From: an uncultured Clostridia bacterium
GTDB taxonomy: Bacteria; Bacillota; Clostridia; Oscillospirales; CAG-272
Assembly: GCA_944384525.1 (NCBI GenBank)
Contig: CALWTR010000030.1
Coordinates: 1-55,920 of the forward strand
Direction: 5' to 3'
Length of the DNA stretch: 55,920 nucleotides
Below the pieces are notes generated by a model. The model saw only the letters and a program-made list of their open reading frames with translations, was not told the origin of the DNA and made no database searches. Each line of letters begins with the position of its first letter. The stretch's first letter is position 1. The translations under genes and the position numbers were made by a program. Shown piece by piece: positions 1,928 through 33,858 of the stretch.

Positions 1928-4900
1928 ATGAACGATATAAAGTACAGAAAAGTTAAAAAGTATCTTTCTATACTCAAGGAAAACTGCACGACTGGCCATG
2001 CGCCGATAAACGAACTCCTTTATTGTGAAAGCGGCTATAAATCCGGGAATGCTCTGCCTCCTCTTTCTTCAATGAGGCCTTTTTATACAGAAAGAGATCT
2101 CTGGGGAGAGACCAACGACAGCCACGCATGGTTTTACACCCATATTTCACTGCCGGACAACGGACGCACCGATACTGAACTCGGTGTTGAAACCGAGCTA
2201 TCCGGCTGGGATGCCGGCAACCCTCAGTTTTTGGTATACGTAAACGGCGAGATGAGGCAGGGCCTGGACACCAACCACCGTTCGGTAACGCTCGGACATG
2301 AGAGAGATTACGATGTATATCTATATGCCTACACCGGTCAGGAACACTCAAAATGCCGTCTCCGTATCTGCACTTTTTCATTCAACACTGATGTGAGAGA
2401 TCTATACTACGATATCGAGGTCCCATTCCGCGCCCTTGACTCTATACCAGACGGTTCCACCGAGTATGTCAGGATACTTGACCATCTCGACACTGCTGTA
2501 TCGATGCTATACCTCCTTAACGTCCCGTCCGAAAAATTTATATCATCGGTGCGTGAAGCAAGAAGATATATGCAAAAAGAATTTTACGGGAAACTGTGCC
2601 GCGGGAGCGAAATATCTGTGGTTGGAACAGGACACACACATATCGACTGTGCATGGCTCTGGACGCTCAAACAAACCCGCGAGAAAGTACAGAGAACATT
2701 CTCTACGGTAGTTGAGCTTATGAAAAAATATCCGGAATACAGATTTATGTCTTCCCAGGCTCTTCTTTTAAAATACCTGAAGGAAGAGGCCCCGGAAAAG
2801 TACTCCGAGGTCAAAGAACTGGTCAAAGACGGGAAATTCGATATTGAGGGCGCAATGTGGGTAGAGGCGGACTGCAATCTTATATCCGGAGAAAGCCTTG
2901 TACGGCAGATCCTATATGGGAAGCGCTTTTTCCGCGATGAATTCGGAGTTGAGAACCATATACTCTGGCTGCCGGACGTTTTCGGATATTCCGCCGCACT
3001 TCCGCAGATACTACGCAAGAGCAATGTAGACTGGTTCGTCACCTCAAAAATATCATGGAACGATACCAACCAGATGCCGTACGACCTTTTCATGTGGAAA
3101 GGGATCGACGGAAGCGAGATAAAAACGTATTTTCTTACGGCACAGGACAAGCGGAAAGACAACTCCACCGAAAGAGGCGCGACCTATGTCGGAGACACAC
3201 GTCCTCAGATGGTAGCCGGAACTTGGAACAGATTTCAGCAGAAATCCTTTACTGACGAGGCTCTTCTTACTTTCGGGTTCGGCGATGGAGGCGGAGGCCC
3301 TACATACGAGATGCTCGAGACCGCAAAGCGCGTATCAAAAGGTATCCCGGGTATTCCGGAACTCAAAATCGATACACCCACCCATTTTTTCAACAGGCTT
3401 GACAAAAAGCTGCGCGGAAAAGAAGAGGCACTGCCCAAATGGCAAGGAGAGCTCTATCTCGAATATCACAGAGGAACATATACATCCATCGCAAAGAACA
3501 AGAAGAACAACCGCCGTTCGGAACTTCTTTACATGGATACGGAATTTGTAAGCACGCTGGCAAAACACCTCACGTCCTCTGAATACCCCAAAGATAAATT
3601 GGCAGAGGGATGGAAAAAGATATTGACCAATCAGTTTCACGATATAATCCCGGGATCCTCGATCAAAGAAGTATACGACTGCTCGGACGAAGATTACCGG
3701 GAAATAGAAAGGATCGCCAACGAGTGCAGAGATGCCGCCGTAAGCAGAATACGGGACGCTGTTGACGCCGACAGCGGTTATATCGTATTCAATCCTCATT
3801 CCTTCCCCGGAAACGGAGTCGTACGCATAGGTGGAAGGACTGTATATGTGACCGACATCCCCGCCAAGGGCTACCGTGTTATCAAGGATGTTATGTGCTC
3901 CAAAAATCACATAAAGATATCCGGCAGGAAGGCAGAAAATGCGTATTTTCTGATCGAATTCGATAAGGACAGGAACATAAAACGCATTTTTGACAAAAAG
4001 GCAGTCCGTGAGATACTTCGCGCGGGATCTATCGGAAATGAATTGCAAATATACGAAGATCGGCCTGACAACTACGACGCATGGGAAATATCGGGATATT
4101 ATTCTCATAAGCATTACACTATTCTTGACGTCTCTTCTGTAAAAGTGATAGACGACGGCGTGCGTAAGGGTGTTGAGACTATACGGAAATATATGAATTC
4201 CCAGATAAAACAGACTATCTGGCTCTATGAAAATACCGGGCGGATCGATTTTGAAACAGAACTCGACTGGCACGAACGGCACCAGCTGCTCAAGGCCGCA
4301 TTCCCCGTAGATATCAATTCCGACAAAGCTACTTATGAAATACAGTTCGGCACCGTTGAACGCCCGGCTCATATGAACACATCATGGGACGAGGCCAAAT
4401 TCGAAGTATGCGCTCATAAATTTGCGGACTACTCTGAATGCGGATACGGAATCGCGCTCATGAACGACTGCAAGTACGGCTATGATATCCACAACGGAGT
4501 CATGAAACTGACTCTTGTAAAATGCGCGACATATCCAAACCCCGAAGCAGATCAGGGGCATCACTCTTTCACCTATTCGCTTTATCCGCATACAGAGCCG
4601 CTCGGGGAAAGCGAGGTCGCTAAAGAGGCGACGCTGCTCAACTATCCCATGTACGCATTACCGGTTTCAAACGATGTCTCCGGAGCGAAAATACCAAGCT
4701 CCTATTCCCTCATAAATTCCGACTGTGAAAACATAATCATAGATACGGTAAAGGAAAGCGAGGACGGAGAGGATACTATCGTAAGGCTGTATGAAAATTC
4801 AAACAGGCGCACCAAAGTCAATATAAACATCGGCTTTGACTTTTCAAAAGCATATATTTGCGATCTGGAGGAAAACGAACTTACCGAGCTTGTGACAGAG

Positions 4901-4963
4901 GGACGTTCCCTTTCTCTGACCGTTAAGCCGTTTGAAATAATCACTCTAAAATTTACCGTCTGA
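1928..4963 (+). CDS. Alpha-mannosidase, glycoside hydrolase family 38
   Basis: Retaining GH38 exo-alpha-mannosidase that removes terminal mannose from N-glycan- or mannan-derived oligosaccharides. It has 1011 residues, normal for the family. An N-terminal beta-rich region (about 1-225) precedes the catalytic domain, which opens with GHTHIDCAW (His236, His238, Asp240; zinc ligands) and contains WLPDVFGYS with the nucleophile Asp350. A middle helical domain (DKLAEGWKKILTNQFHDIIPGSS) and a C-terminal beta-sandwich follow, as expected. There is no signal peptide, so it probably acts in the cytoplasm on imported oligosaccharides. It is monocistronic, with its own promoter and a strong terminator. 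Linkage preference is not readable. Confidence 0.93.
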   Translation: MNDIKYRKVKKYLSILKENCTTGHAPINELLYCESGYKSGNALPPLSSMRPFYTERDLWGETNDSHAWFYTHISLPDNGRTDTELGVETELSGWDAGNPQFLVYVNGEMRQGLDTNHRSVTLGHERDYDVYLYAYTGQEHSKCRLRICTFSFNTDVRDLYYDIEVPFRALDSIPDGSTEYVRILDHLDTAVSMLYLLNVPSEKFISSVREARRYMQKEFYGKLCRGSEISVVGTGHTHIDCAWLWTLKQTREKVQRTFSTVVELMKKYPEYRFMSSQALLLKYLKEEAPEKYSEVKELVKDGKFDIEGAMWVEADCNLISGESLVRQILYGKRFFRDEFGVENHILWLPDVFGYSAALPQILRKSNVDWFVTSKISWNDTNQMPYDLFMWKGIDGSEIKTYFLTAQDKRKDNSTERGATYVGDTRPQMVAGTWNRFQQKSFTDEALLTFGFGDGGGGPTYEMLETAKRVSKGIPGIPELKIDTPTHFFNRLDKKLRGKEEALPKWQGELYLEYHRGTYTSIAKNKKNNRRSELLYMDTEFVSTLAKHLTSSEYPKDKLAEGWKKILTNQFHDIIPGSSIKEVYDCSDEDYREIERIANECRDAAVSRIRDAVDADSGYIVFNPHSFPGNGVVRIGGRTVYVTDIPAKGYRVIKDVMCSKNHIKISGRKAENAYFLIEFDKDRNIKRIFDKKAVREILRAGSIGNELQIYEDRPDNYDAWEISGYYSHKHYTILDVSSVKVIDDGVRKGVETIRKYMNSQIKQTIWLYENTGRIDFETELDWHERHQLLKAAFPVDINSDKATYEIQFGTVERPAHMNTSWDEAKFEVCAHKFADYSECGYGIALMNDCKYGYDIHNGVMKLTLVKCATYPNPEADQGHHSFTYSLYPHTEPLGESEVAKEATLLNYPMYALPVSNDVSGAKIPSSYSLINSDCENIIIDTVKESEDGEDTIVRLYENSNRRTKVNINIGFDFSKAYICDLEENELTELVTEGRSLSLTVKPFEIITLKFTV

Positions 4964-4974
4964 ACCCTAATATC

Positions 4975-5013
4975 AAAAAGGCCTCACCTGAAAAATCAGG
5001 CGAGGCCTTTTTT
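4975..5013. terminator. Bidirectional rho-independent terminator
   Basis: GCCTC-CCTGA stem with an AAAA loop, A-tract before and T-tract after; it ends the GH38 gene on the plus strand and can end dxs on the minus strand. Confidence 0.85.
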
Positions 5014-5085
5014 ATCGGAGTTATTTTACCTGCTCCGCAAATTTATACGGCTTATAAAAACTTATCAAAACGGCACCAAATCGGA

Positions 5086-6954
5086 TCAGATCCAGGAACA
5101 TGCCATCTCTTTTACGGCTCTGCATATATCATCTTCGCCGATTGCCGCCGCGGAATATATGTCGCAGGGAGTATCGGCAACTGCAAAATTATCGTTTACA
5201 GCAAGTATGCGATATTTTCTGCCATCGAGCTCACCCATGCCGTACAGCTCGTGCTCAAGCATCATTCCGGCACCGCCGTTCAAAATCCCCTCTTCCAGGA
5301 AAAGAACGTTTTTCGCTCCGTCAAGCATCGGTATCACGCCGCGTGCCAGATCCGCATACGGCTTAAGGCGCTCCGCAAGTATAACGCCGCACGCATATCC
5401 GTCCGCTTTCAGTTTATCTGCTGCTGACAAAGCTTTGTCAGCTATCGTACCGTATGTGATTATTACATTCTCAGGCGCTTCGGAATAGTTTTTATGGCAT
5501 ATGCCCAGATATTCTTCACCGTCCGGGAAAAATTCAGAGACGACTCTCTCGCTCTCCGGAGCATTTGAATATCTGACCGCTACCGGTCCATGTGAGAAAT
5601 ACACTATATTTACAGCCGCGCGCATTGAAGAAAAAGTTGCAGGAGCAAATATACTCATCCCGGGTATATGAGATAGGAAAGCAACATCGAATATCCCGTG
5701 ATGAGTAGCGCCGTCCGATGCTGCAAGGCCGGCTCTGTCTATAAAAATATTTACCCCAAGTTTTTGTATGCATATATCGTGAAGTATATTGTCGTACCCG
5801 CGCTGAAGAAAAGTGGAATATATGGCGCAGTACGGTCTCAAGCCGTCGGCGGCAAGCCCCGCGGAAAAAGTAAGAGCATGCTCCTCGGCTATCCCTACGT
5901 CAAAGTATCTCTCCGGGAATTTTTCCCCGAACTTTACCAATCCGGTCCCGTCTCCCATAGCTGCCGTTACGGCGACAATATCTTTGTGCTTCTCCGCAAG
6001 CCGGGTAAGCTCCTCAGAAAAAACGTCATGGAACGTCGTTTTACCGGAGCCGGAAGATACGTTGTGGAATTCCGACGGTCTTGACTCAGCCGGAGCATAG
6101 CCTTTCCCCTTTTTTGTTTTCAGATGCACGATCGCACTCTGTCCTGACCTTTTTGCCTCAGAGAGAAGCCGCTCGGTCACCTCATAATTATTTCCGTCTG
6201 CGGGTCCGAAATATTTGAGTCCAAGATCCTCAAAGTAATTCGATGGGTACACGATGCGCTTGATGCGCTGTTTTACAGACGCAAGTGCATTTTCAATATA
6301 GCGTCCGAAAAACGGAATGTGCGAAAGTATGGAATGTGCGTGTTTCTTTGCTCTTACATAGCCTTTTGAAGATCTTATCCTTGCTATATAATCGGCGAAA
6401 GCGCCGGTGTTTTTCGAAATCGACATTTCGTTTTCGTTAAGCACTATGATCAGTTTAAGATCGCGTTTTATATTGTTGAGCGCCTCGTGCACCATGCCCC
6501 CGGTGTATGCTCCGTCGCCGATCACAGCCACAGTGTATGCATCTGACCCCTTGAGCTTTTCCGCCTCGGCAAATCCGAGAGCGGCAGATATCGATGTTGA
6601 ACTGTGCCCTGCTCCGAACGGATCATAATCACTTTCACTGCGGCACGTAAATCCGGACAACCCTCCGCATTTTCTAAGTGTATCGAATCTCTCCCTCCTG
6701 CCGGTCAATATTTTGTGTACATAGCTCTGATGACCTACATCAAAAATTATTCGGTCATTCGGAGCATCGAAGACCCGGTGAAGTGCCACGGTTATCTCGC
6801 ATATACCGAGATTTGAAGCGAGATGCCCTCCTGTATTTATAACATTATCTATAAGGAATCCCCTTATTTCGGAACACAGCTCCGGTATTTGCCTTGCATC
6901 CAGCTTTTTAAGATCCTCAGGAGAATTTACAGAATCAAGAATTTTATATGCCAT
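5086..6954 (-). CDS. dxs: 1-deoxy-D-xylulose-5-phosphate synthase
   Basis: First enzyme of the MEP isoprenoid pathway: condenses pyruvate and glyceraldehyde 3-phosphate to DXP using thiamine diphosphate. The chosen ATG at 6954 gives 622 residues (MAYKILDSV) and has GGAGG five bases upstream. A TTG five codons earlier would swallow that ribosome binding site. The N-terminal domain carries GGHLASNLG, FDVGHQSYVHK and the TPP motif GDGAYTGGM...NN. The pyrimidine domain has DVGIAEEHALTFSAGLA with the catalytic Glu, and a transketolase C-terminal domain follows. It begins 11 bp after the AraC gene stop, so the two are probably co-transcribed. Confidence 0.97.
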   Translation of the reverse strand: MAYKILDSVNSPEDLKKLDARQIPELCSEIRGFLIDNVINTGGHLASNLGICEITVALHRVFDAPNDRIIFDVGHQSYVHKILTGRRERFDTLRKCGGLSGFTCRSESDYDPFGAGHSSTSISAALGFAEAEKLKGSDAYTVAVIGDGAYTGGMVHEALNNIKRDLKLIIVLNENEMSISKNTGAFADYIARIRSSKGYVRAKKHAHSILSHIPFFGRYIENALASVKQRIKRIVYPSNYFEDLGLKYFGPADGNNYEVTERLLSEAKRSGQSAIVHLKTKKGKGYAPAESRPSEFHNVSSGSGKTTFHDVFSEELTRLAEKHKDIVAVTAAMGDGTGLVKFGEKFPERYFDVGIAEEHALTFSAGLAADGLRPYCAIYSTFLQRGYDNILHDICIQKLGVNIFIDRAGLAASDGATHHGIFDVAFLSHIPGMSIFAPATFSSMRAAVNIVYFSHGPVAVRYSNAPESERVVSEFFPDGEEYLGICHKNYSEAPENVIITYGTIADKALSAADKLKADGYACGVILAERLKPYADLARGVIPMLDGAKNVLFLEEGILNGGAGMMLEHELYGMGELDGRKYRILAVNDNFAVADTPCDIYSAAAIGEDDICRAVKEMACSWI

Positions 6955-6965
6955 ACCCTCCTCCG

Positions 6966-7883
6966 TCAATCCTTTATATTGTTGATTTCTTTCAATATGT
7001 CGAGTCTGGTCTGACCGTTATCAAAATCCTCCGCAAGGTAAACTTTTTCACGCCTCTTTTTTGATGTTCGAAACGTCGGTGACTCTCCCATATATTTTAT
7101 ATAAGCCCGGTAAAATGAGGAATAATCTCGGAATCCGACACGCTCTGCGGCCGAGCTCGCGCTCTCGCCGTTGTCTATATACTGTTTAGCCAGAACTACT
7201 CGTTTTTTGGTCAGATATGAATGTATGGTTATCCCGTTGCGCTCCTTAAAATTATGACACAGGTAATACTTGCTCACAAAGAATTGCCGTGCAAGCTCAT
7301 CAAGAGATACTTCGGATGTTAGATTACTGTTGATGTAATTCATGATCGCTGTGCTTATAGAGTTATTATCCGTGACCTCATCGCCGTACTTACCGGCTTT
7401 GTCAGCAATGAAAATAAGTATTTCAAAGATCAACATCGAGCAATATGTCCGCTTTGTAAGATCATTCATCATAGAGCCGTACCTGAAACCGTCGAAAATA
7501 GTACGCACGCGCCCCGGTACCACGTCCGGATCATAGCAGTTTGACACATTTGACGACGGGTCGCAGATATAATCCAGATACTGAAGGCACAGCTCAGAGA
7601 GCAGCGGCCTTTCAAAGTGGACGACATATCTTTCATAAGGATGTGTGCCGAGAATTTCGGCGTAATGGAATTCACCGGGCTTAAGTATGATCAGCATACC
7701 TGGATTCATTGTATATTCTCTGCCCTCGACAACATATCTCCCTCGGCCGTCCAGAATGAATATCATCTCGTAGTCCTCATGACAATGACTGCCGAAAGAC
7801 GCCGGGTTCGGAGACATATCACATTTATAGGCGCATGAAAAACCGCGTGTTTCTATAAGAAAATCCTGGATCAAGAAAAACAT
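6966..7883 (-). CDS. AraC-family transcriptional regulator with cupin-type sensor domain
   Basis: An N-terminal AraC-binding cupin (HCHEDYEMIFILDGRGRYVVEG, PGMLIILKPGEFHY) probably senses a sugar. The C-terminal double helix-turn-helix (SLDELARQFFVSKYYLCHNFKE; SAAERVGFRDYSSFYRAY) binds DNA. The frame is open up to 8006, but a promoter lies at 7956-7984, so translation must start later. ATG 7883 (305 aa) lies just after GGGAGGA, and TTG 7874 (302 aa) has better spacing from the same site. The gene is divergent from the sugar operon at 8155, the usual place for its activator. dxs follows closely on the same strand. Confidence 0.88.
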   Translation of the reverse strand: MFFLIQDFLIETRGFSCAYKCDMSPNPASFGSHCHEDYEMIFILDGRGRYVVEGREYTMNPGMLIILKPGEFHYAEILGTHPYERYVVHFERPLLSELCLQYLDYICDPSSNVSNCYDPDVVPGRVRTIFDGFRYGSMMNDLTKRTYCSMLIFEILIFIADKAGKYGDEVTDNNSISTAIMNYINSNLTSEVSLDELARQFFVSKYYLCHNFKERNGITIHSYLTKKRVVLAKQYIDNGESASSAAERVGFRDYSSFYRAYIKYMGESPTFRTSKKRREKVYLAEDFDNGQTRLDILKEINNIKD

Positions 7884-7955
7884 TCCTCCCGTCAAAACAG
7901 CAACAAGCATCGGCTGTATCAGACGATACAGTAGTCGCCTTTGAAAGTCAATAAT

Positions 7956-7984
7956 ATTATAACTCAGCTGAACAAGTTTTACAA
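7956..7984 (-). promoter_or_regulatory. Promoter of the AraC gene (and probably dxs)
   Basis: On the minus strand TTGTAA, 17 bp, TATAAT (plus 7979-7984 and 7956-7961). It sits back to back with the sugar-operon promoter 44 bp away. Confidence 0.6.
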
Positions 7985-8027
7985 TATAAATTTGCAAGTA
8001 ATGCAAAGAAAAAAAGCAAAAACCGTA

Positions 8028-8056
8028 TTGAAGACCATTTGAATATATGCTAAAAT
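8028..8056 (+). promoter_or_regulatory. Promoter of the sugar operon
   Basis: TTGAAG (8028-8033), 17-bp spacer, TAAAAT (8051-8056), with extended -10 TGC immediately before. It gives a leader of roughly 90 nt before the first gene. Confidence 0.65.
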
Positions 8057-8078
8057 TAAGATGTGATAGGAACTTTTA

Positions 8079-8101
8079 TCGGTCAAATATCGATCGACCG
8101 A
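8079..8101. promoter_or_regulatory. Inverted repeat downstream of the sugar-operon start, candidate operator
   Basis: TCGGTC and GACCGA flank an 11-bp core containing ATCGAT. It lies about 20 bp past the expected transcription start, where a repressor or a second regulator could bind. It does not look like the direct-repeat sites typical of AraC proteins. Inference only. Confidence 0.35.
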
Positions 8102-8154
8102 CACCAAACTCACGTGAAAAGCACATGACAAAAATTGCGAAAAGGAGAACAACC

Positions 8155-8916
8155 ATGAAACTCGGTGCACAATTTTACAGCATCAGAAACCTGACGCAGA
8201 CCCCGGAGGATATAAGGAACTCTTTCAAAAAGATCAAAGAGATCGGATATGATGTAGCGCAGATGTCCGGAATAGGACCGATAGATCCTCATATGCTGAA
8301 AGATATTTCGGACGAATTCTCCCTGCCGATTACCTGCACTCACTCTTCCTATGACAGGATAGTATCTGATACCGTAGCTCTCATACAGGAGCACAAGATA
8401 TACGGATGCCCTGTAATAGGGCTCGGAGGCATGCCTCCGAAGTATCGCGGAAGTGTTGACGGCGTACAGGCTTTTATCAAGGAAATTGCAGAACCGATGA
8501 AAAAAATCAAGGCAGAAGGCATGGAATTCGCATATCACAATCACGCTTTCGAGTTTGACAGACTGAGTGACGGATCGAGGATCTTTGATATACTTTCCGA
8601 GGACTGCGAAGAGCTCAGCTTTATTCTTGACATTTATTGGCTGCATTACGCAGGCGAGGATCATTTAAAATACATCTCAGTATACGGTGGCTCCAGAATG
8701 AGCAACGTACATTTTAAAGACATGAAGTCTGAGCCCCAGGGAGCGATATGCCCCTGCGGTACCGGAACGATCGACATGAAGGCTGCTTACGACGCCTGTG
8801 TCGCCGCAGGCGTAAAATACGCTCAGGTGGAACAGGACAACGCTCCAGACAGCGGAGATGCGATCGGCGAAATGAAAACAAGCTATGTAAATCTTGCGCC
8901 GATATTCGGCAAATAA
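8155..8916 (+). CDS. Sugar phosphate isomerase/epimerase-like TIM-barrel protein (first copy)
   Basis: Xylose-isomerase-like TIM barrel (AP endonuclease 2 fold) of 253 residues. ATG 8155 is preceded by AAAGGAGAACAACC; the frame is open from 8047 but that part overlaps the promoter. Likely metal-site residues are visible: YHNHAFEF, LDIYWLHYAG (Asp), VHFKD (His) and QVEQD (Glu). Proteins of this fold isomerise, epimerise or eliminate sugars and their keto derivatives. In glycoside-cleaving gene sets they work on 3-keto sugars made by a Gfo/Idh partner, and two such partners follow here. First gene of the operon; substrate unknown. Confidence 0.85.
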   Translation: MKLGAQFYSIRNLTQTPEDIRNSFKKIKEIGYDVAQMSGIGPIDPHMLKDISDEFSLPITCTHSSYDRIVSDTVALIQEHKIYGCPVIGLGGMPPKYRGSVDGVQAFIKEIAEPMKKIKAEGMEFAYHNHAFEFDRLSDGSRIFDILSEDCEELSFILDIYWLHYAGEDHLKYISVYGGSRMSNVHFKDMKSEPQGAICPCGTGTIDMKAAYDACVAAGVKYAQVEQDNAPDSGDAIGEMKTSYVNLAPIFGK

Positions 8917-8993
8917 GCAAGCGATCAAAATGCCGCGGCCCTGAATAAAATACCGCCATTCCAAAGCGGATAGGTCAAGAAAGGAAGATAGAA

Positions 8994-9875
8994 ATGGCTC
9001 AATTTGTATTTTCGGCCTTCGCAGATGAGGCCGGGAACAGTATAGAGGCTCAGATAACAGCGCTCAAGCGAAATGATATCCGTTACATAGAACCCAGATC
9101 CGTAGACGGAAGCGGGATCATATTCAAAACCGAGGATGAGCTGAGAGCTATAAAAGGCAAGCTCGACGAGGCTGGGATAAGAGTCAACTCTCTCGGCTCC
9201 CCGATAGGTAAATTCCCGATAGAATCAAAACTTGAAGAACATTTGCCGGACTTTGAAAAAGCAATTACCGCCGCGAAAATACTGAATACCGGATACATGC
9301 GTGTATTTTCCTTTTATGTAGCGCCGAATGAGCTTGATAAATACCGGGACGAAGTCATAAGGCGAATGAAGGTCATGACGGAAATAGCGGGAGAGAACGG
9401 TATAACGCTCTGTCATGAGAACGAAAAAAAGATATACGGCGAACTTCCGGAACGCGTCAAGGATCTTCTGGACAATGTAGACGGTTTGGGCGCTATATTC
9501 GACCCTGCCAACTATCGCTGCGTAAACGCGGACTGCACGCTCGGAATGGACGTTTCTCTGCCTAAACTCAAATATCTGCATATAAAAGACGCGATATATG
9601 AGGGCGAGGTCATCGTTCCTGCCGGTGAGGGCGAAGGCAAGATCGCAGAGGCTATAGACCGCGCCGATAAAGCATACGATTCCCTCCTCTATCTTACGGT
9701 AGAGCCTCACCTAAGACTATTCGAAGCATACAGATCCATAGACTCCTCCACGCTCAGAGGAAAATACTCATTCAATACAGCGGACGAAGCCTTTGATACC
9801 GCAGTTCACGCTTTGGAAAAACTCATGTTTAATAACAGTTTTAGAAAAGGAGAAAACGGGATATGGAAAAGGTAA
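8994..9875 (+). CDS. Sugar phosphate isomerase/epimerase-like TIM-barrel protein (second copy)
   Basis: A second TIM-barrel protein of the same superfamily, 293 residues, only distantly similar to the first copy. Candidate metal ligands sit in LCHENEK (Glu), IFDPANY (Asp), YLHIKD (His) and LTVEPH (Glu). The ATG follows AAGGAAGATAGAA. Its 3' end overlaps the next gene by 13 bp, which suggests translational coupling to the Gfo/Idh protein. Two divergent members in one operon suggest sequential steps or a heteromeric enzyme rather than redundancy. Exact reaction unknown. Confidence 0.83.
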   Translation: MAQFVFSAFADEAGNSIEAQITALKRNDIRYIEPRSVDGSGIIFKTEDELRAIKGKLDEAGIRVNSLGSPIGKFPIESKLEEHLPDFEKAITAAKILNTGYMRVFSFYVAPNELDKYRDEVIRRMKVMTEIAGENGITLCHENEKKIYGELPERVKDLLDNVDGLGAIFDPANYRCVNADCTLGMDVSLPKLKYLHIKDAIYEGEVIVPAGEGEGKIAEAIDRADKAYDSLLYLTVEPHLRLFEAYRSIDSSTLRGKYSFNTADEAFDTAVHALEKLMFNNSFRKGENGIWKR

Positions 9876-11026
9876 GATTCGGCATTGTCGGATGCGGCAA
9901 TATGGGCACCGGACATGCAAATAACTTCAAGAACGGTAAAATAATCAACGGAGTCCTCACCGCGGTATGCGACATAAACCCGAAAAAGCTCGATCATATG
10001 AGAGAGATGTTCGGGGACAGTATAAAATACTATAACACTGCTACCGAAATGTTCAAGTCCGGAGAGGTAGACTGCGTTCAGATATGCACGCCTCACTACA
10101 GTCATCCGTCTCTTGCCATCGAGGCACTTGACAATGATCTCAATGTAATTGTTGAAAAGCCCGCAGGCGTATATACAAAGCAGGTAGCTGAAATGATCGA
10201 GCGCTCTAAGAAAAGCGATAAGATCCTCGGTATAATGTTCAATCAGCGTACCAATCCCGCGTTCAAAAAAATGCGCGAAATGATACTTAACGGGGATATC
10301 GGCAATATAAAGCGAACCAACTGGATAATAACCGACTGGTACCGCACTCAGGAGTACTATGACAGCGGCGCGTGGCGTGCGACCTGGGAGGGCGAGGGCG
10401 GCGGAGTCCTTTATAATCAGGCACCGCATCAGCTCGATCTCTTTCAGTGGATCGTAGGCATGATGCCCTGCCGTGTCCGCGCTTTCTGTCACTTCGGAAA
10501 ATGGCACAATATCGAGGTCGAGGACGACGTCACAGCATATGTAGAATATCCGAATGGAGCTACCGGAGTTTTCATAACGACAACTGCAGACGCCCCGGGC
10601 ACGAACAGATTTGAAGTTACTGGCACAAAGGGCACGCTTATTTTTGAGAACAACAAGCTTTACTATAAAAAGCTCCTGATCGACGAGCGCGAATTCTGCT
10701 TCTCTACATATACCGGATTTAACAAGCCTGAATGTGCCCCCACCGTTGAAATAGAACTTGATAAAGACAATCCTCAGCACGTCGGTATATGCAACAACGT
10801 CGCGAACGCCATCCTCGGCCTTGAAAAACTATACGCGCCGGCGTCCGATGGTATCTGCGGCGTGGAGCTTGCAAACGCCATGCATATGTCGACCTGGCTC
10901 AACGAAACGGTCTCTCTTCCGATCGACGGAGACAAGTTCTATGCGCTCCTCAAGGAAAAGATCGCGTCTTCAAAAGTAAAGAAAACCGACAGCGCGGACT
11001 CAAAGGTCGAGGCTCAGAACGTCTGA
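9863..11026 (+). CDS. Gfo/Idh/MocA-family NAD(P)-dependent oxidoreductase (first copy)
   Basis: Sugar or sugar-derivative dehydrogenase of 387 residues. The N-terminal Rossmann fold has GIVGCGNMGTGH, then the hallmark EKPAG motif near residue 95. The C-terminal substrate domain contains EGEGGGVLYNQAPHQLDL, the family's catalytic His/Asp region. Enzymes of this type oxidise inositols or the C3 hydroxyl of glycosides. It has a strong AAAAGGAG ribosome binding site and overlaps the preceding TIM-barrel gene. The last 20 residues are charged and low-complexity (Lys/Ser/Asp). Confidence 0.88.
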   Translation: MEKVRFGIVGCGNMGTGHANNFKNGKIINGVLTAVCDINPKKLDHMREMFGDSIKYYNTATEMFKSGEVDCVQICTPHYSHPSLAIEALDNDLNVIVEKPAGVYTKQVAEMIERSKKSDKILGIMFNQRTNPAFKKMREMILNGDIGNIKRTNWIITDWYRTQEYYDSGAWRATWEGEGGGVLYNQAPHQLDLFQWIVGMMPCRVRAFCHFGKWHNIEVEDDVTAYVEYPNGATGVFITTTADAPGTNRFEVTGTKGTLIFENNKLYYKKLLIDEREFCFSTYTGFNKPECAPTVEIELDKDNPQHVGICNNVANAILGLEKLYAPASDGICGVELANAMHMSTWLNETVSLPIDGDKFYALLKEKIASSKVKKTDSADSKVEAQNV

Positions 11027-11084
11027 CGAGATATACTCGCCTATATGAATTCAGCTCATAACGCCGAAAGAGGTATATTCAAAA

Positions 11085-12104
11085 ATGTGTGAAAAAATTT
11101 ACCGTTCAGTTCTGGTGGGCTGCGGGACGGTCGCGGATGTGCATCTGACTGCGCTCTGTGAAGGAAATTATGCAAAGGTCACTGCTCTGTGCGATATACT
11201 GCCGGAAAAGGCAAAAGCTGCAATGAACAAGCACGGGATCAACTGTCGTATATACGAGAACTACGAAGAGATGCTCGACAAGGAGCGTCCCGACTGCGTA
11301 CATATATGCACCCCGCATTATCTGCACTCAAAAATGGCCGCGGAGGCTCTTTCAAGAGGAATAAACGTTTTTCTGGAAAAGCCGGCGGCGGCAAATGAGG
11401 AACAGCTCTCCGAACTGCTCTCTGTCGAAAAAAAGAGCGCCGCAAAGCTGTGCGTATGTTTTCAAAACCGTTTCAACCCCTCTACCCTGCTTGCTGAAAA
11501 GCTCCTGACCGAATTCGGGCCTCCGATACAGGCTTTCGGATCGGTAAGATGGAAGAGAGATGTCCCCTATTACACCCAGAGCGGATGGCGCGGGAAATGG
11601 AGCACTGAGGGTGGAGGCGTCATGATAAATCAGGCGATACACACCTTGGATCTCCTGCTTCGCTTCATGGGTCGCCCGGAATATATAACAGCAACTTGCT
11701 CGAATCATCACCTTAAAGGAGTTATAGAGGTAGAGGATACCTGCGAGGCCATGATCGAATTTGACGGCGGACGGCAAGGTCTGTTTTATGCTACCACGGC
11801 GGCTGTAAAGGACACACAGATAGAACTTCAGCTCATCTGCAAGGAGCACGAGATACGGATAATCGGACCTAGAGTATATCTTGACGGAGATCCGCTTGAC
11901 GTTGCGAATTATTTCGGGAAAGAAGACCGTCGCGTTCTGGTAAAGGAATGTTACGGAAACTCTCACATTACTCTGATACGCTCATTCTACGACGCGCTGT
12001 CGAAAGGCGAGGAAATGCCTGTCACTCTCGAGAGCGCAGCGGAGGCCGTCAGAGTCTTGCTTGCGGCTTACAGATCGCATGACGAAAGAATAAAAATACA
12101 CTGA
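11085..12104 (+). CDS. Gfo/Idh/MocA-family NAD(P)-dependent oxidoreductase (second copy)
   Basis: The second dehydrogenase in the operon, 339 residues. Rossmann motif VGCGTVADVH, then EKPAAA, then a C-terminal domain with TEGGGVMINQAIHTLDLL. It is clearly related to the preceding gene but divergent, so the pair probably has different substrates or opposite directions (oxidation of the glycoside, reduction of the released keto sugar). The ribosome binding site AGAGG lies about 12 bp upstream and looks weaker than its neighbours'. Confidence 0.87.
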   Translation: MCEKIYRSVLVGCGTVADVHLTALCEGNYAKVTALCDILPEKAKAAMNKHGINCRIYENYEEMLDKERPDCVHICTPHYLHSKMAAEALSRGINVFLEKPAAANEEQLSELLSVEKKSAAKLCVCFQNRFNPSTLLAEKLLTEFGPPIQAFGSVRWKRDVPYYTQSGWRGKWSTEGGGVMINQAIHTLDLLLRFMGRPEYITATCSNHHLKGVIEVEDTCEAMIEFDGGRQGLFYATTAAVKDTQIELQLICKEHEIRIIGPRVYLDGDPLDVANYFGKEDRRVLVKECYGNSHITLIRSFYDALSKGEEMPVTLESAAEAVRVLLAAYRSHDERIKIH

Positions 12105-12151
12105 TCGGATCAAGCGACAAAGCAAATAAATAAGAAACTGAGGAATGTAAA

Positions 12152-13216
12152 ATGAAAATGACTTTCCGTTGGTACGGCAAAAATGATCCCGTTACCCTCG
12201 AAAAAATCAAACAAATACCCGGAATGACCGGTGTCGTCACCGCGCTTTACACCATCCCTGTCGGAGAAATGTGGGACGAGGCATCGATACTTAAAACAAA
12301 AAAAGCAGTAAATGATGCAGGGCTTGAAATGGAAGTTATCGAGAGCGTGCCCGTCCATGAAGAGATAAAGCTCGGCTCAAACAAACGCGACAAACTCATA
12401 GAAAATTACAAAGGAACGATAAGAAATCTCGGCAAGGCGGGGGTCAAAGTCATATGTTATAACTTTATGCCTGTATTCGACTGGGTAAGATCGGAACTCA
12501 AATTCAGAACTGACGACGGATCAAACTGCCTGGCATACCGTCAGGCTACGGTCGACGCTCTTGATCCGAGAAAGAATTCACTTTCCCTGCCCGGTTGGGA
12601 TGAGAGCTATACCAAGGAACAACTCTCCGGACTGCTTGAAAGATATCGCGATGTAAGCGCAGAGAAGCTGTTTGAAAATATGGTATATTTTCTTGAAAAA
12701 ATAATTCCGGTATGCGAAGAGTGCGATGTCAAAATGGCAGTACACCCGGACGATCCGCCGTGGGGCCTTTTCGGCCTGCCAAGAATAATCTGCAATGAAA
12801 AGGATCTTGACAAGCTGTTTGCCGCTGTGCCGTCTAAGTACAACGGACTCACGTTCTGTACAGGATCCCTCGGTGCAGGTCGCAGTAATGATCTTGTCAA
12901 AATGGCAGGAAAGTACGCCTCCGCCGGCAGGATACATTTCCTGCATTCAAGGAACATAAAGTTCGATGACTGCGGAGGCGGATGCAATTTTCACGAGTCA
13001 CCTCACCCAACCGAATTCGGATCCCTCGATATGTACGGGATACTCAAAGCGCTGTATGACAACGGATTCGACGGATATACACGTCCCGATCACGGCAGAA
13101 ATATTTGGGGTGAAGACGGAAGACCTGGATATGGACTCTATGACCGCGCCCTCGGAGCCATGTATATATACGGTATGTGGGAAGCAATCAAAAAAACTGC
13201 TGAAAACAAGGAGTAA
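12152..13216 (+). CDS. uxuA: D-mannonate dehydratase
   Basis: Dehydrates D-mannonate to 2-keto-3-deoxy-D-gluconate in hexuronate catabolism. The protein has 354 residues, the family length. Characteristic segments are MKMTFRWYGKNDPV at the start, VICYNFMPVFDWVR, VHPDDPPWGLFGLPRI, FCTGSLGA and HSRNIK; His, Cys and Asp residues in these bind the divalent metal. It is followed six bases later by the SDR gene, a typical uxuA-uxuB arrangement. Glucuronate isomerase, KDG kinase and KDPG aldolase are not in the window, so they must be encoded elsewhere. Confidence 0.95.
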   Translation: MKMTFRWYGKNDPVTLEKIKQIPGMTGVVTALYTIPVGEMWDEASILKTKKAVNDAGLEMEVIESVPVHEEIKLGSNKRDKLIENYKGTIRNLGKAGVKVICYNFMPVFDWVRSELKFRTDDGSNCLAYRQATVDALDPRKNSLSLPGWDESYTKEQLSGLLERYRDVSAEKLFENMVYFLEKIIPVCEECDVKMAVHPDDPPWGLFGLPRIICNEKDLDKLFAAVPSKYNGLTFCTGSLGAGRSNDLVKMAGKYASAGRIHFLHSRNIKFDDCGGGCNFHESPHPTEFGSLDMYGILKALYDNGFDGYTRPDHGRNIWGEDGRPGYGLYDRALGAMYIYGMWEAIKKTAENKE

Positions 13217-13222
13217 ACTAAT

Positions 13223-14077
13223 ATGAACTGCCCTTTTAATACTGATCTGAGCGGCAAGACAGCCGTCGTTACCGGTGGCGGCGGAGTGCTTTGCGCCGCT
13301 TTCTCCGAGGAACTTGCAAAATGCGGAGCTCGGGTAGCTGTTCTCGATATAAATCTCGATGCCGCAAAAAAAGTAGCGGACAAAATAAAGGAAAACGGCG
13401 GGACCGCAATTGCCGTCCACGCCAACTGCCTGGACCGCGCAAGCCTTGAAAGCGCAAAATCGATCGTTGACAAAGAATTCGGCCCCTGTGATATACTTAT
13501 AAACGGCGCCGGAGGCAACAATCCGAAGGCAACTACCGCAAACGAGTATTTCGATAAAAAAACGATCAAGGATCCCTCAGTACAGGATTTCTTCGACATC
13601 AGTCCAGACGGTATACGCTTTGTATTTGATCTGAACGTCACTGCGGCATTTCTGACGACACAGGTATTTGCAGCAGATATGGCGGAAAGCGGAAAGGGCG
13701 GAAATATAATAAATATTTCCTCGATGAACGCATACAGACCGCTTACAAAGATACCCGCTTACAGCGCAGCCAAAGCGGCTGTCTCCAATCTGACGCAGTG
13801 GTTGGCAGTGCACTTTGCCAACGCAAACATACGCGTTAACGCACTTGCCCCCGGCTTCTTTGTTTCCAATCAAAATCGTACGTTGCTGTTCAAACAGGAC
13901 GGTACGCCTACGGAAAGGACCGAAAAAATACTGCGCGGCACGCCCATGAAACGCTTCGGACGTGCGGAGGAACTGCTCGGCGCCCTGCTCTTCCTGCTGA
14001 ACGACGATGCGGCGAGCTTTATAACGGGAGTGATCCTTCCGATCGACGGCGGGTTCTCAGCATATTCAGGAGTTTGA
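13223..14077 (+). CDS. uxuB: SDR-type D-fructuronate reductase (mannonate oxidoreductase)
   Basis: Short-chain dehydrogenase of 284 residues. Visible are the cofactor motif TGGGGVLC, the NAG-type segment NGAGG, catalytic Ser (NISSMNAY), Tyr-x-x-x-Lys (YSAAK) and the C-terminal TGVILPIDGG. Its position directly after uxuA and its similarity to the Bacillus YjmF type argue for reduction of fructuronate to mannonate. The alternative is a general sugar-acid dehydrogenase. Ribosome binding site AAGGAG, last gene before a strong terminator. Confidence 0.85.
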   Translation: MNCPFNTDLSGKTAVVTGGGGVLCAAFSEELAKCGARVAVLDINLDAAKKVADKIKENGGTAIAVHANCLDRASLESAKSIVDKEFGPCDILINGAGGNNPKATTANEYFDKKTIKDPSVQDFFDISPDGIRFVFDLNVTAAFLTTQVFAADMAESGKGGNIINISSMNAYRPLTKIPAYSAAKAAVSNLTQWLAVHFANANIRVNALAPGFFVSNQNRTLLFKQDGTPTERTEKILRGTPMKRFGRAEELLGALLFLLNDDAASFITGVILPIDGGFSAYSGV

Positions 14078-14089
14078 ACTGATGAAATA

Positions 14090-14135
14090 AAAAAACGAAT
14101 GCGGCAGACAAAATTCTGCCGCATTCGTTTTTTTT
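14090..14135. terminator. Bidirectional rho-independent terminator
   Basis: ACGAATGCGGCAGA stem with a short loop, A-tract on the left and T-tract on the right. It ends the sugar operon (plus) and the glmM operon (minus). Confidence 0.9.
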
Positions 14136-14142
14136 AGAAATA

Positions 14143-14817
14143 TCAGTATCTGGGCACTATTTCTCCGGCGTTCTTATATATTGAATCTGCCGGAACGTAA
14201 CCCCTTACGGAGCTGAGCGGATATACCGATGCTCCTCTGCCTATAACAGTTCCCGGATTCAATACACTGCCCGCCCCTATCTCGGCCATATTTCCCAGAA
14301 TTGCACCGAGTTTTTTGAATCCGGTCTCTATTCTTTCCCCAAAGCAACGTATGCACACCGGCGATTTGTCGCTCTTTACATTTGAGGTAAGCGCGGCGGC
14401 GCCCAAATGCGCACGATATCCGATTATCGAATCCCCTACATAATTAAAATGCGGGATCTGAGCCATATCGAAAATTATACTGTTCTTTATTTCTACGGAA
14501 TTTCCTATAACGACGCCCTTGCCTATAATAGCCCCGCCTCTTATAAAGGCGCAGTGCCTTATCTCGCTGTCATCGCCTATAACAGTCGGCCCTTTGATGC
14601 AGGCGCTGGCGGCGACGTGCGCTTTTTTCGAGATATACACTCCATCGCCCCTCTCCTCATATTCTCCGGCGGGCAGCGATGCTATGACCGTCATTATATA
14701 TTCCTTTATCTTCGGTATCGCCTGCCACGGATAGATTTCTGAAAGGATCAGCTCTGCCGCCACAGTTCTGCTTTCAATATCGGGAAAAAGCTCCCGTGCA
14801 CTCAATTCATTTATCAC
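14143..14817 (-). CDS. Stand-alone left-handed beta-helix acetyltransferase, GlmU C-terminal-domain-like
   Basis: Hexapeptide-repeat protein of 224 residues. GTG 14817 has GGAGGG six bases upstream and overlaps the glmM stop. Isoleucine-rich repeats run from about residue 65 to 215. GNSVEIKNS, PHFNYVGDS (His) and LTSN (Asn) line up with the GlmU segments GNFVEVKKS, SHLSYIGDA and ITVN, which hold the acetyltransferase residues. There is no pyrophosphorylase domain. Placement right after glmM suggests it acetylates glucosamine-1-phosphate on the way to UDP-GlcNAc. Annotations of relatives as 'UDP-GlcNAc pyrophosphorylase' would be misleading. Activity is inferred. Confidence 0.75.
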   Translation of the reverse strand: MINELSARELFPDIESRTVAAELILSEIYPWQAIPKIKEYIMTVIASLPAGEYEERGDGVYISKKAHVAASACIKGPTVIGDDSEIRHCAFIRGGAIIGKGVVIGNSVEIKNSIIFDMAQIPHFNYVGDSIIGYRAHLGAAALTSNVKSDKSPVCIRCFGERIETGFKKLGAILGNMAEIGAGSVLNPGTVIGRGASVYPLSSVRGYVPADSIYKNAGEIVPRY

Positions 14818-16183
14818 TGCGTCCCTCCAGGGCAAGCCCCTCATCAAATATTACAGATACCAGTTCACCGACATATTTATCGCAAAGCTCCTCGCTCTCC
14901 GCCTCTGCCATAACACGAATGACCGGCTCAGTACCGCTCTCCCTCAGAAGTATTCTGCCTGAACTGCCTATCTCCCCGCGTATCTCAAGCAGTTTATTTT
15001 TCACTTTTTCATTCAGCATAACTTTTGACTTATTGCCGACGCGAACATTTTTGAGTACCTGAGGATACATTTTAACGCGAGAGGCTAATTTGCTCAAAGG
15101 CAGTTTTGTCTCTATTACTGCCTCCATGAGTTTTATTGCAGTCAATATACCGTCACCGGTAGTCGAATATTTTGACATTATTATATGTCCCGACTGTTCC
15201 CCGCCGATGCCGTGACCGTTCTCGCGCATATTTTCATATACGTACCTGTCTCCGACCTGAGTGCTCACATGATCTATTCCCGCCTCATCAAGAGCACGGT
15301 AAAGGCCCATATTAGACATAACGGTAGTTACCACCGTATTATTCGGAAGTACGGAGCGTCGTTTCATCTCGCACGCAAGTATATACATTATCTGGTCTCC
15401 GTTTACCACTTGCCCCAGCTCATCTACTGCTATACACCGGTCGGCATCCCCATCAAAAGCAAAACCTATATCAAGGTGCTCACGCTTGACATAATCTGCA
15501 AGACGCTCTATATGAGTAGAACCCGCGTCCTTATTTATATTTGTACCGTCCGGCTCGGCATTTATAACATAGGTTTTTGCTCCGAGCGCGTCAAACACGC
15601 TTTTAGCTATCATCCACGCACTTCCGTTCGCACAGTCAAGACCTATCTTTATATCTTTGCAGGAAAAAGTGGATATGGATATCAAATAACCTATATATCT
15701 GTTCCTGCCGGAAAAATAATCGACCACCTTGCCTATTTTATCCTCGGTAGCCAGCGGAAGATCATCACCGCCGCAGTCAAAATTCCCGTCAAGATAACTC
15801 TCTATTTTAGACAGGAGCCCGTCATCCGCTTTTTCTCCGTCAGAATTTATGAGTTTGATACCGTTGTCATAAAAAGGGTTATGAGATGCAGATATCATTA
15901 TCCCGCAGTCGAAATCATCGTGCTGTGCCACATAGGAAACGCTGGGCGTCGTTGTGACATGTAGCAGATACGCATCCGCTCCGGAAGCAGTCAGTCCCGC
16001 TACTATGGCATATTCAAGCATATAGCTCGATCTTCTAGTATCCTTTCCTATAACGACTCTGGCGTTATCGCTCCTCTGCTTAGAAAAATACCAGCCGATA
16101 AATCTGCCTATTTTGTAAGCATGTTCAGCGGTGAGCGAAACGCCGGCTTTACCGCGAAATCCGTCAGTACCGAAATACTTCAA
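14807..16183 (-). CDS. glmM: Phosphoglucosamine mutase
   Basis: Interconverts glucosamine-6-phosphate and glucosamine-1-phosphate for peptidoglycan precursor synthesis. It has 458 residues. The start MKYFGTDGFRGKAG carries the substrate-binding N-terminus. ISASHNP holds the serine that is phosphorylated, FDGDADR is the metal-binding loop, GGEQSGH the sugar-binding loop, and RESGTEPVIRVM the phosphate-binding C-terminal domain. First gene of a two-gene operon with the acetyltransferase-like protein, translationally coupled by an 11-bp overlap. Confidence 0.97.
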   Translation of the reverse strand: MKYFGTDGFRGKAGVSLTAEHAYKIGRFIGWYFSKQRSDNARVVIGKDTRRSSYMLEYAIVAGLTASGADAYLLHVTTTPSVSYVAQHDDFDCGIMISASHNPFYDNGIKLINSDGEKADDGLLSKIESYLDGNFDCGGDDLPLATEDKIGKVVDYFSGRNRYIGYLISISTFSCKDIKIGLDCANGSAWMIAKSVFDALGAKTYVINAEPDGTNINKDAGSTHIERLADYVKREHLDIGFAFDGDADRCIAVDELGQVVNGDQIMYILACEMKRRSVLPNNTVVTTVMSNMGLYRALDEAGIDHVSTQVGDRYVYENMRENGHGIGGEQSGHIIMSKYSTTGDGILTAIKLMEAVIETKLPLSKLASRVKMYPQVLKNVRVGNKSKVMLNEKVKNKLLEIRGEIGSSGRILLRESGTEPVIRVMAEAESEELCDKYVGELVSVIFDEGLALEGRSDK

Positions 16184-16260
16184 TCTTTTTTCCCCCGTAA
16201 ATCAGAAAATTAGTTTCTCTGCCGGTGAAACCGGGAATAACGATTTGAGCCGACTTTGAA

Positions 16261-16289
16261 ATTATAGCAAACCGTAGCACATATGTCAA
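16261..16289 (-). promoter_or_regulatory. Promoter of glmM
   Basis: On the minus strand TTGACA, 17 bp, TATAAT (plus 16284-16289 and 16261-16266), with TGC before the -10. A near-perfect housekeeping promoter. Confidence 0.8.
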
Positions 16290-16466
16290 TATGGATAATC
16301 ACTAAAAATTCAATATTATTATCTTATTTATTGATATATATTTACTGATTTTATAAATTTTCATATGTAAAATAATAAAATTGATCAGTAATATATATCA
16401 ATGATAATATACTGGATCTATTTCCGCCAACAATGGACAATTTTTATCCGCATTGACATAGTCGCG

Positions 16467-16503
16467 CAAAAAAACAAACGACAGACAATTTTGTCTGCCG
16501 TTT
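16467..16503 (-). terminator. Rho-independent terminator of tgt
   Basis: Minus-strand stem ACGGCAGACA/TGTCTGTCGT (one G-U pair), AAAT loop, then a T-rich run. Confidence 0.8.
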
Positions 16504-16538
16504 TTAATATATGTTACGGGCCGAAATTTGACATAATA

Positions 16539-17681
16539 TCAGTTTTCGGAACGTTCCGCCAAAAGATCTACATATTTTTTATAGAATTCGCCGTAACGTC
16601 CCTCGTCAAGAGCATCCCTTATCTTCTGCATAAGTTCATTATAAAAATACAGATTATGGAGAACGCAAAGGCGCATTCCGAGTGCCTCGCGGGCTTTGAA
16701 GAGATGACGTATATAGCTCCTTGAATAGCTCCTGCATGCAGGACAGCCGCAGTTCTCATCTATCGGTCTCGGATCATCAAAGTACTTCTCATTGTTCAAG
16801 TTCATTTTTCCGTGCCAGGTGAAGAGATTTCCATGCCTTGCGTTTCTGCTCGGCATAACACAATCAAAGAAATCAACGCCTCGGTACACTGCCTCGATTA
16901 TATTCTGAGGAGTACCTACTCCCATAAGATACCTCGGCTTCATCTTAGGCATATAAGGTTCTATGACATCGATTATATGATACATCACGTCTGCCTCTTC
17001 CCCGACGGCAAGTCCTCCTATGCCGTATCCGTCAAGATCCATTTCGGCTGCCCTTATCATATTTTCAACACGAAGATCATCGTATGTCCCGCCCTGATTT
17101 ATACCGAACAGAAGCTGATCCTTATTGATAGTTTCCGGGAGAGAATTAAGGCGCGACATCTCCTCCTTGCACCTCTTCAGCCATCTGAGCGTGCGCTCGT
17201 GCGATGCCTTCACATATTTATACGGAGATGGATTTTCCACACATTCATCAAAAGCCATAGCTATGGTCGAGGCTAAATGCGACTGTATCCTCATACTCTC
17301 CTCAGGCCCCATAAATATGCGTTTGCCGTCCATATGAGAGTTGAAATGAACGCCCTCTTCAGTTATTTTCCTTAGTTTTGCAAGCGAAAAAACTTGAAAC
17401 CCTCCGGAATCTGTAAGTATGGGTCTGTCCCAGTTGAAAAATTTATGCAGTCCACCCATACGATATATGAGATCGTCTCCGGGGCGTATATGCAGATGAT
17501 AGGTATTTGAAAGCTCCACCTGGCAATTTATCTCTCTGAGATCATCCGTAGAAACTCCGCCTTTTATAGCGGCCGATGTGCCGACGTTCATGAAAACAGG
17601 CGTTTCTATCACCCCGTGTACCGTGGTGAATCTTCCGCGCCGTGCTCTTCCCTCTGTATTAAGTATTTTAAATTCAGCCAT
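16539..17681 (-). CDS. tgt: Queuine/preQ1 tRNA-ribosyltransferase
   Basis: Exchanges guanine-34 in GUN-anticodon tRNAs for preQ1 during queuosine synthesis. The length is 380 residues. Key segments are ILTDSGGFQVFSL (catalytic Asp), GGLAVGE, YLMGVGTP and FDCVMPSRNARHG (nucleophile Asp). The zinc site CGCPAC...LHNLYFY is complete. Last gene of the miaB-ylbF-mutS-mutL-tgt run, with a 65-bp gap to mutL. Confidence 0.97.
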   Translation of the reverse strand: MAEFKILNTEGRARRGRFTTVHGVIETPVFMNVGTSAAIKGGVSTDDLREINCQVELSNTYHLHIRPGDDLIYRMGGLHKFFNWDRPILTDSGGFQVFSLAKLRKITEEGVHFNSHMDGKRIFMGPEESMRIQSHLASTIAMAFDECVENPSPYKYVKASHERTLRWLKRCKEEMSRLNSLPETINKDQLLFGINQGGTYDDLRVENMIRAAEMDLDGYGIGGLAVGEEADVMYHIIDVIEPYMPKMKPRYLMGVGTPQNIIEAVYRGVDFFDCVMPSRNARHGNLFTWHGKMNLNNEKYFDDPRPIDENCGCPACRSYSRSYIRHLFKAREALGMRLCVLHNLYFYNELMQKIRDALDEGRYGEFYKKYVDLLAERSEN

Positions 17682-33797: not shown

Positions 33798-33858
33798 CAT
33801 ATTTCCTTTCGAAGTGAACTCTGATGACAAAACTCGACAGTAAGCGTAACTTGTATAT

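Follow-up and report, generated by a model that had tools for sequence, protein, structure and literature searches.

We describe a six-gene operon on a 55,920-nucleotide stretch of DNA (the window) from an uncultured Clostridia bacterium of the order Oscillospirales (GenBank assembly GCA_944384525.1, contig CALWTR010000030.1). The operon probably encodes a cytoplasmic, NAD-dependent pathway in which O-glucuronides undergo oxidation, elimination, hydration, and reduction, and which is coupled to the Ashwell hexuronate pathway. Its products belong to the families AP_endonuc_2 (two TIM barrels of the sugar-phosphate-isomerase-like SPIE type, SPIE1 and SPIE2), Gfo/Idh/MocA (two oxidoreductases, Gfo1 and Gfo2), UxuA, and D-mannonate oxidoreductase of the short-chain dehydrogenase/reductase (SDR) type. 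We observed kinship of these proteins to known enzymes in sequence and fold, conserved active-site residues, a conserved operon structure, and co-clustering with hexuronate genes. From these we infer the reactions in this organism, their compartment, the substrate, and the division of tasks within each pair of proteins.

In the proposed pathway, Gfo1 would oxidize C3 of the glucuronosyl residue with NAD. SPIE1, as a lyase dependent on a metal (probably Mn), would then take the C2 proton and eliminate the aglycone, so that a 2-hydroxy-3-keto-glycal in its glucuronic-acid form remains. SPIE2 is most likely a hydratase that would add water to the C1=C2 bond to give 3-keto-glucuronate, or else it may share in the elimination. 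Gfo2 would give the hydride back and return 3-keto-glucuronate to glucuronate. UxaC, encoded elsewhere in the genome, would convert glucuronate to fructuronate, the SDR of the operon would reduce fructuronate to mannonate, UxuA would dehydrate mannonate to 2-keto-3-deoxygluconate (KDG), and KdgK, encoded beside UxaC, would phosphorylate KDG. A preliminary description of this DNA had proposed that glucuronides are cleaved without hydrolysis and enter the mannonate/KDG route, an idea that gains support from the kinship of Gfo1 and SPIE1 and from the uxu and kdg genes in the clusters of other genomes.

Gfo1 and SPIE1 are related to enzymes of oxidative glycoside cleavage

The best solved relative of Gfo1 is 8tdi, "P2B11 Glucuronide-3-dehydrogenase" (E = 1.8e-89), to which it is homologous over nearly its full length (residues 1 to 369), although at just 46% identity. 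Residues K99, P100, H189, and D192 are invariant in 12 sequences and correspond to the Gfo/Idh active site; we take them to be catalytic (Lys-Pro, His/Asp). SPIE1 shares its fold and active-site residues with the 3-keto-beta-glucopyranoside-1,2-lyases AL1 and BT1 (8tcd, 8tcr, and 8tct), although identity is just 21 to 23%. P2B11, AL1, and BT1 reportedly come from Nasseri et al., Nature 2024, a paper cited in PMC13273386, PMC12550630, and PMC12291463.

When solved structures were searched with a SPIE1 profile, the eliminase AtOGE of Agrobacterium tumefaciens (8bvk) matched at E = 2.6e-35, and 8tcs, 8tcd, and 8tct matched as well. In a Foldseek comparison of the SPIE1 model (predicted local distance difference test score [pLDDT], 98.0), the AL1 and BT1 lyases took ranks 1 to 4 and AtOGE took ranks 7 and 9. 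AtOGE binds its metal through His132, Asp163, His189, and Glu233 and uses His134 for catalysis (PMC10628242). The SPIE1 residues H128, H130, D159, H186, and E226 align with AtOGE H132, H134, D163, H189, and E233, and all five, together with K188, are invariant in 44 sequences (the window plus 43 of 44 length-filtered candidates, with a second copy in locus L135 omitted). SPIE1 thus has the marks of an eliminase, namely, a TIM barrel, metal ligands in the order His, Asp, His, and Glu, and, two residues past the first of these, a catalytic His, and by sequence comparison it is a homolog of 3-keto-glycoside lyases. The preliminary description had suggested structure prediction for both TIM barrels; by fold, lyases rank first for SPIE1, and for SPIE2 the search did not tell hydratase from epimerase.

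Hexuronate genes in the source genome

UxuA scored 405.7 bits against an equivalog cutoff of 199.55, and the operon copy is the only one found in the source genome, which is estimated to be 72% complete. UxaC and KdgK are encoded by adjacent, divergent genes on another contig of that genome (C48, positions 9529 to 10881 and 8258 to 9277, respectively), so that UxaC, fructuronate reductase, UxuA, and KdgK are all present. KdgA had no match in the first 20 kb of C48, the part of the genome that was searched for it. Compared with the Ashwell pathway (UxaC, UxuB, UxuA, KdgK, and KdgA), the operon shares UxuA and D-mannonate oxidoreductase. It differs in having an SDR in the role of UxuB and in its proposed entry step, an oxidative cleavage of glycosides in place of a glucuronidase. 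A second cluster in this genome (locus L058, positions 4621 to 7449, contig C39) has the order AP_endonuc_2, Gfo/Idh, AP_endonuc_2 and possibly represents another oxidative glycoside route.

Related clusters and a SPIE2-Gfo1 fusion

Similar gene sets, which the preliminary description had suggested looking for in other gut genomes, recur in related uncultured bacteria. SPIE2 had a match in 37 of 59 genomes searched, the source genome included, and the same AraC and Dxs genes flank the SPIE/Gfo genes in 13 of 20 relative loci that were fetched. A single peptide pattern was also run against genome_contigs (84,980 species genomes by description), and of the encoding stretches that matched, at least 588 in number, the top 80 were analyzed as loci. 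Neighbors were counted up to 9 kb from SPIE2 and only on its strand; for these counts, a locus was considered well flanked if 6 kb or more of sequence lay downstream and 1.5 kb or more upstream (n = 54). The records are mostly Clostridia, Clostridiales, Oscillospiraceae, and Ruminococcus-type metagenome genomes, with a few others, and many are named for gut samples of sheep, goat, deer, buffalo, horse, or rabbit.

Near SPIE2 lay a Gfo gene of either kind (73 of the 80 loci), SPIE1 (43), the SDR (47), UxuA (30), UxaC (19), KdgK (9), and KdgA (9). At least one of UxaC, UxuA, and the SDR was present in 55 loci, including 41 of the well-flanked ones, and all three were present in 13. Eight loci carried these three plus KdgK or KdgA (L078, L084, L098, L100, L114, L121, L131, and L136). 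In L098, a gene for a GH112-type lacto-N-biose phosphorylase (14394 to 16601) separates the uxu genes from the kdg genes.

Where SPIE2 and a Gfo gene are adjacent (59 pairs), a single open reading frame encodes both in 17 cases (L066, L068, L091 to L094, L097, L099, L108, L112, L118, L120, L123, L124, L126, L127, and L130), and the fused partner is always Gfo1. Of the remaining 42 pairs, at least 25 have a 13-nt overlap like the one in the window.

With 8tdi as the query, 114 of 391 sampled genomes of the class matched at E = 1e-60 or better (the Gfo1/P2B11 family). We fetched 20 loci around high-ranking matches, four of them on contigs shorter than 10 kb. A SPIE gene lay near Gfo1 in all 20, and UxaC, UxuA, or the SDR (at least 45% identity) was found in 7; a 27% SDR match in L191 was not counted. 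Two of the three loci nearest to P2B11 have uxu/kdg genes (L174 and L176, not L175). This co-occurrence with hexuronate genes, frequent although limited to a minority of the 20 loci, supports glucuronate as the freed sugar. In a search of plasmid DNA, the only matches were about 109 bases long and fell in uxuA of three Klebsiella records.

Proposed roles of Gfo2 and SPIE2

The three best solved relatives of Gfo2 are, in order, 3q2i, 3q2k, and 8tdi. The first two are presumably WlbA-type enzymes that oxidize C3 of a UDP-linked glucuronic acid derivative; on that assumption, both Gfo proteins fall near enzymes acting at C3 of glucuronic acids. Gfo2 residues K99, P100, H186, and D189 are kept in 15 of 15 sequences. 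Among 15 genomes of the same genus, Gfo1 lies in the operon in 8, a Gfo1-family gene lies on another contig in 5, and none was found in 2. The five genes outside the operon are nearly full length, with 39 to 46% identity. Since most operons without Gfo1 (5 of 7) thus have a Gfo1-family gene elsewhere in the genome, the distribution fits a dehydrogenase role for Gfo1 and a reductase role for Gfo2. Operons with one Gfo would also fit a single enzyme that recycles its hydride, as reported for DgpA with 3-oxo-glucose (PMC11239390).

SPIE2 belongs to a distinct family. Its residues E142, D170, H196, and E237 are invariant in 43 sequences and, judging from the fold family, are putative metal ligands. 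The SPIE2 model (pLDDT, 92.8) matched generic SPIE folds in Foldseek, with ketose 3-epimerases at ranks 1 to 5 and AtHYD, the probable hydratase of A. tumefaciens, at rank 43.

Several observations weigh against the proposed pathway. A phmmer search with SPIE2 found no relative among solved structures at E = 0.001, and its profile matched AtHYD (8ro4) at E = 6.8e-4 over residues 123 to 203 only, as the sixth of 12 matches, behind AsbF, Art22, IolI, and two others. SPIE2 occurs without SPIE1 within 7 kb in 24 of 51 well-flanked SPIE2 loci. Neither UxaC, UxuA, nor the SDR lies nearby in 25 of the 80 loci (13 of the 54 well-flanked ones), and 13 of the 20 P2B11-family loci are without a uxu gene. 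The 80 loci are interrelated, so their counts are not independent, and the uxu co-location figures are raw counts. No nearly full-length Gfo1 was found in the genomes G034 and G018, some relatives' operons have only one Gfo, and the operon of the window contains no transporter gene.

Alternative explanations

Because SPIE2 is so often found without a nearby SPIE1, it may do more than hydrate the product of SPIE1. In a variant that does not exclude the pathway above, and that we regard as a real possibility without favoring it, SPIE2 would be a second lyase or a bifunctional lyase/hydratase with another linkage specificity, and SPIE1 might also hydrate. In some relatives SPIE2 is fused to Gfo1, which would act first, and this points in the same direction. 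However, in A. tumefaciens one protein eliminates and another probably hydrates, the latter on "preliminary evidence" (PMC10628242), and the weak SPIE2 profile matches are to AtHYD and to AsbF, a probable 3-dehydroshikimate dehydratase.

It is unlikely that the operon serves a free hexuronate or rare sugar acid, with SPIE1 and SPIE2 acting as isomerases or epimerases and the Gfo pair inverting a center by oxidation and re-reduction ahead of the uxu route. The epimerases that lead the SPIE2 fold ranking would suit this scheme, as would the substrates of UxuA and the SDR, which are free acids. Yet Gfo1 is closest to an enzyme named for glucuronides, and SPIE1 has the beta-eliminase His and ligands, with lyases at the top of its fold ranking.

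The preliminary description also allowed for a C-glycoside as the substrate, but cleavage of glucuronosyl C-glycosides by a DgpABC/CarABC-type system is very improbable here. That system shares the class of chemistry, in which an oxidoreductase acts at C3 and a metal-assisted elimination follows (PMC8563793), and Gfo1 matches DgpA (7xr9, E = 4.5e-17). C-deglycosidases, however, consist of alpha and beta subunits and use Glu as a ligand and His for catalysis (E147 and H149 in AgCGD2; PMC8563793), and neither a beta subunit nor that motif occurs in the operon: SPIE1 has His-Asn-His, as in AtOGE, which acts specifically on O-glycosides (PMC10628242), SPIE2 has Glu-Asn-Glu without the catalytic His, and none of the six genes encodes the small subunit. 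No chain labeled DgpB or DgpC appeared among the solved-structure matches at E = 0.001 (five sequences for SPIE1, zero for SPIE2). The C-glycoside route is disfavored on its active-site motif and its missing small subunit.

Inositol catabolism by IolE/IolG-like enzymes, which the preliminary description had named as grounds for giving up its proposal, is scarcely credible and was rejected: the curated models that best match SPIE1, Gfo1, and Gfo2 are named iolE and iolG, but scores are far below the equivalog cutoffs (SPIE1, 30.4 versus 290 bits; Gfo1 and Gfo2, 100.8 and 99.3 versus 355 bits), and the inositol route has no place for uxu genes.

Comparison with published systems

The four-step chemistry proposed for the window is already published (PMC10628242; compare PMC13273386 and PMC8563793). 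The GlycDH/Gfo/AtOGE/AtHYD operon of A. tumefaciens likewise encodes two oxidoreductases and two SPIE-type TIM barrels, for oxidation, elimination, hydration, and reduction (PMC10628242). In contrast to the operon of the window, its first oxidase is the flavoenzyme GlycDH rather than a Gfo protein, its substrate is a glucoside, and no uxu genes are named in the sections consulted; the string "glucuron" is absent from the text of PMC10628242. The preliminary description knew of no account of its combination of genes. In part this has been overtaken, since two SPIE proteins with two oxidoreductases are on record and a structure of glucuronide-3-dehydrogenase (8tdi) is available; the two-Gfo/two-SPIE/uxuAB set was not found in the literature searched. 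Nor did a search on 3-keto-glucuronide find anything. Maribacter growing on arabinogalactan expresses a Gfo-family GH109 enzyme of unknown function, mannonate dehydratase, and GH67 and GH115 enzymes (PMC11036162), and oxidative glucuronide cleavage does not appear in the passages of that paper that were consulted. What may be new relative to the published chemistry is the coupling of SPIE/Gfo genes to uxu/kdg genes and the SPIE2-Gfo1 fusion. Neither was found in the literature searched, which did not include the Nature 2024 paper, and their absence in print is not established.

Possible substrates and significance

The route is assumed to be cytoplasmic, and the substrate is therefore assumed to be small. 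To the genes contiguous with relatives' clusters we assigned Pfam families (E = 1e-8, 25 of 67 families listed) in 72 open reading frames, hand-picked from 152 contiguous frames of at least 180 amino acids (176 of any length). Among the families listed were CE15-type esterases (4), alpha-L-rhamnosidase (2), GH43 (2), MFS_2 transporters (2), and a GH112-type phosphorylase (1). The remaining neighbors are largely housekeeping runs upstream in L091, L093, L094, L097, L099, L120, and L124. CE15-type esterase genes lie near the clusters of some relatives, namely, L114, L121, L095, L135, and L077. Because such genes adjoin the clusters, plant cell-wall glucuronic acid is a plausible source; host or flavonoid glucuronides would also be compatible.

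The source genome itself encodes a CE15-type glucuronoyl esterase on contig C54 (110 bits versus a cutoff of 27), a model that none of 14 control genomes matched. Its GH2 matches are a protein of about 1,030 to 1,040 amino acids, the length of a beta-galactosidase, and a 2,213-amino-acid frame. Searches of this genome, 72% complete, turned up neither GH67 nor GH115.

A bolder proposal, which we consider doubtful, is that uncultured herbivore-gut Clostridia possess a self-contained machine that takes glucuronides to KDG (in some genomes, to pyruvate). In it, the SPIE2-Gfo1 fusion of some relatives would channel the reactive 3-keto intermediate, and the pathway would take the place of alpha-glucuronidases and free (4-O-methyl)glucuronic acid from plant glucuronoxylan fragments. 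The replacement is hinted at by the missing GH67 and GH115 matches in an incomplete genome, by its CE15-type gene, and by the CE15-type genes near some relatives' clusters.

Cleavage of glucuronides in the gut bears on how drugs and hormones are reactivated and on how the side chains of plant xylan are used; it is usually sought through glucuronidase families. If our reading is correct, a Gfo/SPIE route tied to uxu and kdg genes would escape such searches, with the Gfo1/P2B11 family as frequent in the sampled genomes as reported above. Such clusters would be a genomic signature open to testing, and in the SPIE2-Gfo1 fusion the early steps would be accessible in one protein.

Operon boundaries and regulation

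The six genes span 8155 to 14077, all on the + strand. The arrangement given in the preliminary description, in which tightly spaced co-directional genes lie between a promoter and a terminator and diverge from an AraC gene, proved right, with corrections to the starts of the first gene and of the AraC gene, to the 13-nt overlap, and to the identity of the sixth gene as an SDR. The reading frame called for SPIE1 is 8047 to 8916, and the other five calls are as listed in Table 1. SPIE1 probably starts at the ATG at 8155, since AGGAG precedes it and homolog alignments begin there. Successive gaps are 77, -13, 58, 47, and 6 nt.

Table 1. Features of the operon and its surroundings in the window
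Feature	Position	Strand	Basis
AraC-family regulator (cupin + HTH_18), divergent; annotated TTG start at 8006	6966..8006	-	family search
Operator-like block (window copy degenerate)	7970..7998	.	aligned to relatives' consensus GAGCAATTTTTGCAATAGTTTTTGCAA
Promoter TTGAAG-N17-TAAAAT, TG ahead of second hexamer	8028..8056	+	consensus scan, upstream alignment
SPIE1, 3-keto-glycoside 1,2-lyase (O-glycoside beta-eliminase) homolog	8155..8916	+	sequence and fold, invariant residues
SPIE2, second TIM barrel, probable hydratase or second lyase	8994..9875	+	invariant residues, weak profile matches
Gfo1, glucuronide 3-dehydrogenase homolog	9863..11026	+	match to 8tdi; 13-nt overlap with SPIE2
Gfo2, second Gfo/Idh enzyme, probable 3-keto-glucuronate reductase (putative role)	11085..12104	+	solved relatives
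UxuA, D-mannonate dehydratase	12152..13216	+	curated cutoff passed
SDR-type D-mannonate oxidoreductase (fructuronate reductase, UxuB function)	13223..14077	+	NF006132, 419.5 versus cutoff of 281
Hairpin terminator, A/T runs on both sides, between convergent genes	14089..14134	.	folding versus shuffles

Upstream of the operons of 12 relatives (L060 to L069, L072, and L073), alignment revealed a consensus block, GAGCAATTTTTGCAATAGTTTTTGCAA, followed by TTGAAA..TATGTTAAAAT. The window fits the latter well and, in the preceding block, GAGCAATTTTTGCAATAGTTTTTGCAA loosely. The promoter scores 9 of 12; sites of such quality number 25 in the window against a shuffle mean of 18.4 (standard deviation, 4.3), which is little excess. 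The GAGCAATTTTTGCAATAGTTTTTGCAA block is a candidate operator that AraC may bind. Because the annotated TTG start would put the operator-like block inside the AraC gene, translation probably begins farther in, at an ATG (7910 or 7883).

The terminator hairpin has 20 pairs and a folding energy of -30.4 kcal/mol (z = -9.4), and none of 200 shuffles did as well; it was not among the matches of a consensus terminator scan of the window. Elsewhere in the window are further sugar-related genes, namely, a GH35 beta-galactosidase (26794 to 28554), an acetyl xylan esterase (38757 to 39719), an MGH1-like glycoside hydrolase (39899 to 41383), and a GH32-type domain protein (41413 to 42288), as well as a 980-amino-acid protein composed mostly of BspA-type leucine-rich repeats (LRR_5; 30948 to 33887).

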